Assembly: GCA_001045525.1 (NCBI GenBank)
Contig: LDWW01000011.1
Location: forward strand, 1 to 64,000
Length of the DNA stretch: 64,000 nucleotides
Source of the DNA: Chitinispirillum alkaliphilum
GTDB lineage: Bacteria; Fibrobacterota; Chitinivibrionia; Chitinivibrionales; Chitinispirillaceae
Direction: 5' to 3'
The notes under the pieces were generated by a model, which worked only from the letters and a program-made list of their open reading frames with translations, ran no database searches and was not told the origin of the DNA. Positions within the stretch are counted from its first letter, which is position 1; each line of letters opens with the position of its first letter. The position numbers and the translations under genes were made by a program. Shown here piece after piece: positions 45,937 to 59,365 of the stretch.

Positions 45937-47673
45937 TCAAGAAATTATTTCCCCATCAACTAAATCCAAAAGAGTCTTAATGATGGGCTCCTTTTCAATT
46001 TCCTCATCTAAATTTGCTCCGCTTTTTTCCACCGGCTCCGGAGCATAAGGTTCTACTTTTGCCTCTTTTTTTCTCTGCTCAAGAGTGACTCTCAACGCCA
46101 CTGGCGCACCCGTATACCTGTGCAGAATCTGTGTTATCAGATCACGGTTCTGTTTTCTGTTTATCTCTCTGTACTGAAAGCCACACTCTGCCCCAAACTG
46201 AATATCCACCGTTGTATCATTCACCGACAAAACGCGGCCCTGAGCCATAAAGGCACCCAGATTGGGCCTTTCGTGAATGAGATGATCGATAAATGCGGGC
46301 CAGTTTTCCTTTAAATCCTGCGGCACTACAACTTTTGTATCAATGAAATTCTCCGCAGAACCATCAGACTTATACAACTCAGCGCCTGATACCTCTTTAA
46401 CCAGGGACGTTTTGTTCCCGGAGTCCTCAACATTTTGAGTGTAAGAAACACCCGCAGAGTCTAAACTATTTTTTTTTTTACTGTCCGTTTCCGAACTGGT
46501 CTGATCTGAGACTGAAGAGGATTCCTGAGGTTCGGGACTCTCTTTTCCTGCCATTTTCAAAAGCTGCTCGATACTTACGGTGCTGTCAAGGTAGACCAGC
46601 TTTAAAACCATAACCTCAACCAGAAACCGCGGAAACGCACTCCAACGCAGTTCTGCTTCAGTTTTCTTCAGAATCTCTGCCATGCGCAAAAGATCGGTTT
46701 CGGCAAAGAGCTTTGAGTCCTCAGCAAACATCTCGATTACATCCTTCTCAAGCTCGGCCCCGCGGGCTTCAAGCGCTCCGGGGATACGGGCAAAAAGCAG
46801 ATTTCTCACATGATCCTGGAAACCAAGGATAAAATCGTGAAGATCGTATCCGTTATAGAGGACATTTTTAACAGCTTTAATGGACGGAACAGGATCTTTT
46901 TCTCTGATTGAGTCTACGATTTCCCGGTACACCTCAACCCCTACGATCCCTAAAACAGAGCGCACCTCATTTTCTGTGATCCCCTCTGCGCAGAATGAGT
47001 ATACCTGATCAAGCAAACTGAGCGAGTCACGCATGCTCCCGTCGGCCTTGCGTGCAACAAGCATCAAGGCACCGCGTTCGTAGGATATCTCCTCAGATTC
47101 ACATATGTGAATAAGCCTTTGGAGTATCTGTTCGGCACCTATGCGACGGAAATCATACCTTTGACACCTGGAATGTATTGTTGCAGGAATTTTATGTGGT
47201 TCGGTTGTGGCAAAAATGAAAATCACATTTGCAGGCGGCTCCTCGAGGGTCTTGAGAAGAGCATTGAAGGCTGATTTTGAAAGCATGTGAACTTCATCAA
47301 TAACGAAGATGCGGTATTTACCCCCCATTGAGGAGTAGCCGATGTTTTCCCTGAGCTCCCGGATATCTTCTACAGAGTTGTTCGAGGCTCCGTCAATCTC
47401 CAAAACATCGAAACTCGATCCCCCAAGAATACTCTTGCAGTTGGTGCAAACCCCACACGGACTGGCGGTTGGCCCCTGCTCACAGTTCAAAGCCCTGGCC
47501 AGAATACGTGCAGTGGTGGTTTTACCCACTCCGCGCGTCCCGGCAAAAATAAAGGCATGGGCAACCCTGTTTGATTCAATAGCCCTGCAGAGTGTGCCGG
47601 TTATATGCTCCTGCCCAACTACATCATCAAAATTTTGAGGACGCCATTTTCTTGCAAATACCTGATAAGCCAT
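45937..47673 (-). CDS. dnaX: DNA polymerase III subunit gamma/tau
   Basis: 578 residues. MAYQVFARKWRPQNFDDVVGQ starts the AAA+ domain (21 residues, with R9, P12 and F15 conserved). Walker A is GTRGVGKTTTAR, the zinc module is C...SPCGVCTNC, Walker B with FVIDEVHML follows, and SRC is sensor/arginine-finger region. Domain III ends near residue 370; a low-complexity linker rich in Ser/Glu (about 375-440) leads to a tau-type C-terminal domain. The linker contains an A11 tract (codons 399-402) where one extra or one missing A brings a stop within three codons. Full-length tau and a shorter gamma of about 402 residues are therefore expected. The 4.5S RNA gene lies just upstream. Confidence 0.97.
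   Translation of the reverse strand: MAYQVFARKWRPQNFDDVVGQEHITGTLCRAIESNRVAHAFIFAGTRGVGKTTTARILARALNCEQGPTASPCGVCTNCKSILGGSSFDVLEIDGASNNSVEDIRELRENIGYSSMGGKYRIFVIDEVHMLSKSAFNALLKTLEEPPANVIFIFATTEPHKIPATIHSRCQRYDFRRIGAEQILQRLIHICESEEISYERGALMLVARKADGSMRDSLSLLDQVYSFCAEGITENEVRSVLGIVGVEVYREIVDSIREKDPVPSIKAVKNVLYNGYDLHDFILGFQDHVRNLLFARIPGALEARGAELEKDVIEMFAEDSKLFAETDLLRMAEILKKTEAELRWSAFPRFLVEVMVLKLVYLDSTVSIEQLLKMAGKESPEPQESSSVSDQTSSETDSKKKNSLDSAGVSYTQNVEDSGNKTSLVKEVSGAELYKSDGSAENFIDTKVVVPQDLKENWPAFIDHLIHERPNLGAFMAQGRVLSVNDTTVDIQFGAECGFQYREINRKQNRDLITQILHRYTGAPVALRVTLEQRKKEAKVEPYAPEPVEKSGANLDEEIEKEPIIKTLLDLVDGEIIS
46469..46479 (-). promoter_or_regulatory. A11 slippage site in dnaX (gamma/tau switch)
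   Basis: On the coding strand AGT is followed by eleven A and then TAG. In frame this reads Ser-Lys-Lys-Lys-Asn-Ser. With twelve A the frame reads four Lys and then TAG; with ten A it reads three Lys, Ile, Val, TAG. Both shifted products end at about residue 402-403. Thermus thermophilus dnaX makes gamma by transcriptional slippage at an A9 tract. No E. coli-like A6G site or upstream stimulatory Shine-Dalgarno is seen. Confidence 0.75.
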
Positions 47674-47700
47674 ACTACAACTGCCCTTAAAAGGGGAAAA

Positions 47701-47800
47701 GGGGCCAAGTTTACCTGCGGCACACCGAGTTTCTGCTTACCGTTGCTCCCTTCCGGGCCTGGCGGAGTTCACAGGCTTTGGTTGCGCAGGGCCTGACCCC
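47701..47800 (-). ncRNA. ffs: Signal recognition particle 4.5S RNA
   Basis: About 100 bases on the minus strand. It starts GGGGTCAGGCCC and ends with GGCCCC, closing a long hairpin. The conserved apical domain reads CCAGGCCCGGAAGGGAGCAA with the GGAA tetraloop and the symmetric/asymmetric internal loops typical of bacterial SRP RNA. A TTTT run follows. It lies directly upstream of dnaX, a common location. Confidence 0.95.
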
Positions 47801-47992: not shown

Positions 47993-48078
<86 letters not shown>

Positions 48079-58318: not shown

Positions 58319-59365
58319 ATGATCTTTAATGAATTTGAAAAAAAAATTAATAGTTACCTTTGGGCCGGTTACAATATTGAAAACGGTTGCCCTAGATGGA
58401 TTTTGGAAAATATTAAAAAAAAGAACGACTATAGCTATTCTTTAAAAGAGGCTATTAACATATTTGATTCTGTTTTTGATGACATTGCAAACAAATGTAA
58501 TAAACAACACATAATACCTCTTAGTGGTGGATGGGATAGCAGAGCAATCTTGGGAGCGGTTATTGAGAGGTTTGGAGCCAAAAGTATTACGACTGTCACT
58601 TACGGTTCACAAGGACAATTAGATTTTGAAATAGGGGCAGCTATTGCTAGAGATGCAGGGGTTAAAAATATTGTTGTAGATTTGCAAGAAATGCTTTTTA
58701 CGTGGGAAAATATTGCAAGAGCAGTGAAGGAGTGTCCTTGGGTTGTCATCGACGGAGCACTATTTAATTCGACTTGTTGGGAGTACGCTGATTCTAACAG
58801 TACAATTTGGAGTGGGTTTTTAGGGGGAATTACAGGAGGTGGTTTATTATCAGATTTATCATATAGACAATTGAAAGACAGCCAAAAAGCTGCTTTGTTT
58901 TCATCAAAACAACAATTTTTCAAAGAATTCTCATTGTGTCATCCGTCCTACTCTTTTGAAAAAGCGTTGCCAAAATCAACAGATAACACTTTTTGTGACA
59001 AATATTTATACTGGTATTTCATGCGACAAACAAACTATATTGCGCCCTCTTTAATAACACGGGTACAATTAGAAGATTGGACTCCCCTTATAAGCAGAGA
59101 TGATGGTAAACAAATTGCGCTACATTTCCTTAATAGAAGGTGGGCAAATTATTGGCTTAACGCGCCCGATGAGGCTTTAAAAAAACAAAGATTATACCTA
59201 GATATTTTAGGAAGTAAGTTTCCAAGATTATTCTCCTTACCAAGCAAATATTCTTTTGGAATGCATCCCAAAAAAAATTACTTGTTAAATTTGCTAAAAC
59301 AAATCATGCAATTAGAAAGCGCATACAAAATAAATACCCACGGCTCAACATACGTTCAATTGTAA
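58319..59365 (+). CDS. Asparagine synthase-like amidotransferase, frameshifted at C-terminus
   Basis: 348 residues in the open frame. PLSGGWDSRAIL is the ATP-pyrophosphatase P-loop; GFLGGITGGG and LEDWTPLISRDDGKQIALHFL match the synthetase C-terminal domain. The N-terminal glutaminase domain is absent. At A8 (59270-59277) the frame should shift: with one extra A the reading continues for about 100 residues to TGA 59590-59592, overlapping the next gene's ATG as ATGA. Within glycan clusters such proteins often amidate sugars or amino acids; that role is an inference. Without the shift the last ~30 residues are non-native. Confidence 0.7.
   Translation: MIFNEFEKKINSYLWAGYNIENGCPRWILENIKKKNDYSYSLKEAINIFDSVFDDIANKCNKQHIIPLSGGWDSRAILGAVIERFGAKSITTVTYGSQGQLDFEIGAAIARDAGVKNIVVDLQEMLFTWENIARAVKECPWVVIDGALFNSTCWEYADSNSTIWSGFLGGITGGGLLSDLSYRQLKDSQKAALFSSKQQFFKEFSLCHPSYSFEKALPKSTDNTFCDKYLYWYFMRQTNYIAPSLITRVQLEDWTPLISRDDGKQIALHFLNRRWANYWLNAPDEALKKQRLYLDILGSKFPRLFSLPSKYSFGMHPKKNYLLNLLKQIMQLESAYKINTHGSTYVQL

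Follow-up and report, generated by a model that had tools for sequence, protein, structure and literature searches.

Which products does dnaX of Chitinispirillum alkaliphilum give, and at which level are they told apart? In the window, i.e. the whole stretch of 64,000 nucleotides analysed, the gene carries an uninterrupted run of eleven A past its clamp-loader domains. In Thermus thermophilus, dnaX mRNAs vary in length through slippage at a run of nine A/T, and about half of the product is full-length (PMC5009743; slippage at this site is also described in PMC1088944); the RNA-DNA hybrid of the Thermus polymerase is 9-10 bp long, and at an efficiency near 50% one base can swap the roles of the products (PMC5009743). 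Polymerase slippage is further documented for A11 in E. coli lacZ and for A10 in Shigella spa13 and in Buchnera (PMC6260861, PMC5009743). We consider it probable that the A11 of dnaX is a programmed transcriptional-slippage site giving tau and gamma; the gene in the window would then yield tau together with a 402-404-residue form of gamma, chiefly through slippage of the polymerase.

The A tract of dnaX in the window

The tract appears as eleven T on the plus strand, that is, as A11 in the minus-strand dnaX, and it occupies codons 399-402, exactly where the preliminary description had placed it; the codons around it are AGT AAA AAA AAA AAT AGT. Its assignment to the linker after domain III holds as well, since residue 373 is the last of Pfam domain III and the tau C-terminal domain starts only at residue 451, and the stops described for both shifted frames are indeed there, one being met immediately with A12 and the other two codons past the lysines with A10 (Table 1). 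Translation of the shifted frames gives 402 residues (45.0 kDa, ending in DSKKKK) for A12, 403 residues (ending in DSKKKIV) for A10 and 404 residues for A13. With A8, A11 and A14 the tau frame is retained and 577-579 residues are encoded. The arrangement is thus of the Thermus type: at least nine A past the clamp-loader domains, both shifted frames stopped nearby, and tau in the genomic frame.

Table 1 Position of dnaX and of the elements around its A tract in the window
Feature	Position	Strand	Evidence
dnaX, encoding tau (578 aa) in the genomic frame	45937..47673	-	TIGR02397, 447 bits (cut-off 250); PF13177, PF22608, PF12169, PF20964
Domains I-III, residues 1-373, common to gamma and tau	46555..47673	-	End of PF12169 at residue 373
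A11, putative slippery tract, codons 399-402	46469..46479	-	Conserved in 147/153 dnaX of the phylum
5-bp hairpin GUUCG-GAAA-CGGAC, 3 nt 5' of A11	46483..46496	-	Stem count and 34-nt fold
TAG reached at once with A12; same stop for -1 ribosomal frameshifting	46466..46468	-	
TAG reached with A10 or A13	46461..46463	-	
Tau C-terminal domain, residues 451-546, absent from gamma	46036..46323	-	PF20964

Runs of this length are rare in the genome: in 4.43 Mb there are four distinct tracts of at least eleven A (five overlapping matches), of which the dnaX tract is one; the other three were inspected by open frame only. One of them, again an A11 (L303, C14:87761-87771), probably sits right in front of a dehydrogenase-like gene, as judged by eye. 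The only other A/T run of at least nine in the window is an A9 on the plus strand (58338-58346). Directly upstream of dnaX, on the minus strand, lie a small SRP RNA (47700-47798) and a tRNA gene (47993-48078); downstream follow ybaB and then recR.

Conservation of the tract and its stops, and changes of the genomic frame, in Fibrobacterota

Among named relatives a Chitinispirillum MAG is nearest to the window (L006, 71% in the best segment), which most likely belongs to Chitinispirillaceae. A dnaX match was found in 156 of 167 genomes of the phylum at E ≤ 1e-40, the other 11 having none at 1e-20 either; once three split or cut genes (G002, G032, G153) had been dropped, 153 remained whose sequence past domain III was readable. 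In the 260 nt that follow domain III, 147 of the 153 have eight or more A in a row, 145 nine or more and 130 ten or more, the conserved lengths being A8-A12; the 147 include one gene (G029) whose A8 sits 209 nt past domain III and may be there by chance. Domains I-III of the same 153 genes, 170,532 nt in all, contain one A8 and no run of nine or more, and dinucleotide shuffles of the stretch past domain III have A≥8 in 6.4% of cases. Every member read carries the tract in 34 of 38 genera. Lysine is mostly encoded by AAG in dnaX of families f9 and f11 (67% and 73% of the Lys codons), yet the tract is pure A. Alignment with relatives, by which the preliminary description wanted to see whether the tract is absent elsewhere, has thus come out in favour of conservation. 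The six readable genes without A≥8 belong to f3 (L182, L174, L175, L180) and f12 (L214, L205) and are possibly natural losses of the site; the dnaX tail in f12 is only about 70 aa long. Among loci placed outside the phylum by record title (58, of which two are cut and 56 readable), nine have A≥8 and five of these A10, so that Fibrobacterota stands out for its dnaX tract but is not alone. Three such loci from deltaproteobacterial or proteobacterial MAGs (L081, L084, L085) combine A10 with near stops in both frames.

The stops are conserved together with the tract. With the frame that stays open longest past the tract counted as that of tau, both other frames are stopped within 10 codons from the tract start in 129 of 147 genomes. 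The comparison with codon-order shuffles was made on 144 of the 147 tails, those shorter than 150 nt being excluded: both frames are stopped within 5 codons after the tract in 87.5% (shuffled 5.2%) and within 10 codons in 88.9% (shuffled 14.9%), and the genus-weighted rate for 5 codons is 0.79 versus 0.08 in 34 genera. A stop is found at 0.86 in the one-A-fewer frame (shuffled 0.23) and also at 0.86 in the one-A-more frame (shuffled 0.39), which is the frame that -1 frameshifting would enter. Of the 18 exceptions to the rule of stops in both frames, 11 belong to genera g25 and g27.

The genomic frame itself is not constant. Tau is encoded in the genomic frame in 122 of 147 genomes, in the +1-nt frame (one A more) in 10 and in the -1-nt frame (one A fewer) in 15, and the 25 out-of-frame genomes are spread over families f1, f2, f8 and f9. 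A tree of domains I-III (quick LG+G4, 93 of 153 rows, comprising all genes outside g29 and a sample of g29; long branches flagged at G025, G166, G146, G001, G152 and G024) requires at least 11 changes among the three frame states, 9 of them between in-frame and out-of-frame, and on well-supported branches alone each shifted state still needs a minimum of 4 changes. Single flips could be sequencing errors: G095 stands alone in g29, and G139 in g30, with A11 and a flipped frame, A10 being the length in the 75 and 5 further congeners that were read; G139 shares its state with a Fibrobacter intestinalis locus (L028), and the two are probably one contig. In other genera the out-of-frame state is common to separate genomes, namely 3/5 in g4, 2/2 in g11, 2/2 in g24 and 10/10 in g27.

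A profile built from 24 in-frame tau tails recognised the tail in 11 of the 25 out-of-frame genomes, in every case in the predicted frame and in no other. It found no match in the remaining 14, whose tails are short, cut off or unlike the profile and were assigned by reading: in G041 the contig ends, G006 and G007 end in FDGEIL, and the eleven genomes of g25 and g27 share a block recognised by eye. These eleven (g27: L294, L219, L222, L220, L218, L292, L223, L291, L221, L296; g25: L293) have A9 with a conserved tail one A out of frame, and their genomic frame adds 8-54 codons. By eye, ybaB seems to start, in a different frame, before this tail has ended. The tau tails of g4 (L158, L162, L101, L160, L159) and g11 (L153, L155) are only about 50-105 aa long, too short for the whole tau C-terminal domain; most of them retain a C-terminal block like EPIIQxLLDxFDGEL, which is also seen at the end of tau in the window.

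A hairpin 5' of the tract

Stems upstream of the tract were counted if they were perfect (4-11 bp, loop of 3-8 nt), ended at a distance of 0-6 nt from it and scored at least 12, a cut that was chosen after the folds had been viewed, the excess being present at all cuts from 8 to 16. Such a hairpin precedes the tract in 92 of 147 genomes. Weighted by genus the rate is 0.47, whereas other positions in these genes give 0.13, dinucleotide shuffles 0.11 and the downstream side 0.14. With one genome per genus, the genera being not fully independent, it occurs in 16.3 of 35 genera where 3.7 (shuffles) or 4.6 (same gene) are expected, the worst of 200 draws giving p 0.0004; at a score of 14 the count is 9.7 genera against 1.5 or 2.3 expected, with a worst p of 0.005. 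The signal is also sharply placed: 0.30 at the tract, 0.27 three nt before it, 0.05 six nt before it and 0-0.13 farther upstream. At other runs of A≥8 such a stem is found in 10.8% of 111 cases and, in the genome of C. alkaliphilum itself, in 5 of 38. The arms vary by lineage (GUUCG/CGGAC in the window, GACCUC/GAGGUC in g37, CGCCUC/GAGGCG in g29, UCCUC/GAGGA and UCUUC/GAAGA in g11).

The signal comes from f1, f9 and f11. The hairpin is absent or weak in 55 of 147 genomes, and none was found in f2, f5, f6, f8 and f13, nine genomes together. In the window it is modest when taken alone, with an empirical p of 0.04 against other positions of the gene and 0.05 against shuffles and a z of -1.65 for the 34-nt fold. 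Covariation within g28, g29 and g31 (28 distinct 20-mers) was not significant: 70.5% of positions pair versus 70.0% in column shuffles, further pair types number 9 versus 2-7 in slid registers, and two-sided changes 3 versus 0-3. Since covariation gives no significant support, the case for the hairpin rests on its enrichment and its position. Outside the phylum, L081 and L085 have a hairpin right before their A10; L084, L048 and L060 remain below the cut.

Probable slippage of the polymerase, its rivals and known systems

In the mechanism we propose, RNA polymerase would stutter on the A tract and produce a pool of dnaX mRNAs that differ in their number of A, and a hairpin of the nascent RNA abutting the tract probably assists the stutter in many lineages. 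A tract of about ten A with a hairpin at once 5' of it would fit the polymerase well, the hybrid filling the tract and the hairpin forming behind it. Transcripts of the window gene with A8, A11 or A14 would then be translated to tau, and in those of other lengths a stop would follow after no more than a few codons, leaving gamma (402-404 aa), which has the clamp-loader part but lacks the tail of tau. As such a pool would always hold all three frames, the length of the genomic tract would be nearly free to drift, and genomes with gamma in frame and tau out of frame would be the outcome. The DNA itself provides the tract and its conservation, the stops in both frames, the flips and the enriched hairpin, and from these we infer slippage, its two products with their ratio, and a role for the hairpin. 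The gamma of about 402 residues made by slippage that the preliminary description proposed is the best explanation for these findings, with one correction: in 25 of 147 relatives it would be tau, and not gamma, that requires the shift. That most of the phylum shares a recoding module at the level of the polymerase, in which a hairpin and an A8-A12 of about the length of the RNA-DNA hybrid keep all three frames expressed at all times while the genomic frame is near-neutral and has flipped at least 11 times, seems to us evenly poised between right and wrong.

Gamma could also be made in translation, from an unchanged mRNA, by one-way -1 ribosomal frameshifting on A_AAA_AAA as in E. coli. In the window this heptamer is in frame, and a -1 shift would meet the same TAG as A12 and give the same 402-residue product. 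The E. coli dnaX, same gene and with the same outcome as inferred here (gamma from the tau frame), uses A_AAA_AAG with a Shine-Dalgarno sequence 10 nt upstream and a stem-loop downstream; A_AAA_AAG is not found in the window, where A11 is followed by TAG. The preliminary description saw no stimulatory elements of the E. coli type, and this stands for the Shine-Dalgarno-like pairing, which at -3.7 kcal/mol is weaker than in E. coli (-6.3) and lies at the 52nd percentile of the gene's own positions; it does not stand for upstream structure, the window having the hairpin that is enriched in the phylum. The median pairing is -5 kcal/mol or better in 5 of 35 genera (g4, g21, g27, g29, g37), but the GAGG of g27, g29 and g37 forms the 3' arm of the hairpin, and upstream hairpins are reported to attenuate -1 shifts (PMC6321510). 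The downstream fold has a z below -2 in 46 of 147 genomes and a genus median below -2 in 3 of 35 (g9, g28, g33); in the window it is -10.4 kcal/mol (z 0.1), and as the E. coli control with -19.7 kcal/mol has a z of 0.0 the test is of low power. Perfect stems up to a score of 14 are not enriched downstream, again a weak test since the E. coli control has no perfect stem. In g29 (e.g. L257, L251) the 60 nt after the tract fold better than shuffles, with a median z of -1.94 in 76 genomes. Against -1 frameshifting speaks that it requires a stop only in the one-A-more frame, whereas the other frame is stopped equally often, that it cannot yield tau in the 15 genomes that have tau in the -1-nt frame, and that a tract of 8-12 A exceeds the heptamer. 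The indifference to frame and the stops in both frames thus favour transcriptional slippage over -1 frameshifting, which we regard as unlikely.

Somewhat less unlikely, and the main rival to slippage of the polymerase, is that ribosomes slip or slide both ways as they read the lysine codons of the A tract, a movement that the hairpin might steer, and obtain the two products from a single mRNA. Ribosomes do slide on poly(A), and a two-way movement would also account for the indifference to frame and for the stops in both frames. We had considered that a decoding ribosome covers the hairpin, so that only RNA polymerase would be affected; this idea was dropped because an upstream refolding hairpin adjoining the shift site attenuated -1 and stimulated +1 shifts with 70S ribosomes (PMC6321510). 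As upstream hairpins can act on ribosomes too, this explanation was kept. The +1 effect, however, is described only in the absence of release factor 2 and at a different site (PMC6321510), and slippage of the polymerase is documented at just such A/T runs, those of Thermus dnaX, lacZ, spa13 and Buchnera cited above. One observation sits uneasily with polymerase slippage: in g25 and g27 the genomic frame adds 8-54 codons rather than stopping at once. A contingency repeat, by which slippage in DNA replication would toggle tau between cells in the manner of phase variation, would explain that tract length drifts between species, as in the A10 to A11 flips of g29 and g30. However, a switch does not require stops in both frames, and all ten g27 species read are out of frame, so that tau would be off across the genus. 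Tau is expected to be needed, and we regard such a switch as very improbable. Hardly conceivable, finally, is that the tract is a by-product of selection for a patch of lysines in the linker without any recoding: it always encodes two to four lysines, but it is pure AAA in genes that mostly use AAG, the run crosses codon borders in any phase, and both the stops in two frames and the out-of-frame tau tails would be left unexplained.

With slippage of the polymerase as the preferred explanation, the nearest known system is the A9 of Thermus dnaX as described in PMC1088944 and PMC5009743: there, too, a sense-strand A run follows the clamp-loader domains of the same gene, either non-zero frame soon meets a stop, the genomic frame encodes tau, and transcripts of other lengths give gamma. 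The tract differs in being A11 here (A8-A12 in the phylum) and in the frame flips among relatives; in many lineages of Fibrobacterota a hairpin abuts it, the 5' flank in Thermus lying outside this comparison. Stem-loop-dependent slippage is described for an insertion sequence of Roseiflexus, which slips at T5C5 only with a stem-loop 5'-adjacent (PMC5009743). The inverted repeat 5'-adjacent to the slip motif is a common trait, that of the window having 5 bp and lying 3 nt away. In contrast to the homopolymeric A11, however, the Roseiflexus motif is T5C5 with a stem-dependent, unidirectional loss of one base, whereas the dnaX tract is expected to slip both ways and some lineages have no stem. 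If the 5' hairpin does act on RNA polymerase, slippage stimulated by a stem-loop, described for a transposon, would apply also to a homopolymer and to a core gene of the cell.

Neither slippage in dnaX nor the existence of split dnaX genes is new in itself. Seventeen two-ORF dnaX genes with a frameshift from 12 genera were compiled as a GeneTack cluster, 12 of them with poly-A and nine with ten A, and slippage was proposed (PMC3711429); the data set includes one Fibrobacteres genome (its Table 3). Recoding would likewise be required for tau in 25 of 147 genes of the phylum, but the dnaX of the window is a single ORF, and the groups described in the part of PMC3711429 considered here are already split genes, a phylum alternating between both states not being shown there. 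Conservation across a phylum, the repeated flips and the 5' hairpin seem to be new; no report of recoding in Fibrobacterota dnaX or of a hairpin 5' of a dnaX slippage tract was found in the literature covered, which included few subscription papers and no supplements. Apparently, the replicase gene of one phylum keeps two products while its genomic frame drifts, and selection on the stutter of the mRNA would thereby become readable from DNA alone. In that case dnaX of Fibrobacterota would serve as a natural experiment for studying how gamma arises and what it is for. It also bears on annotation: 25 of the 147 dnaX genes look truncated or broken, yet they probably still make full tau.
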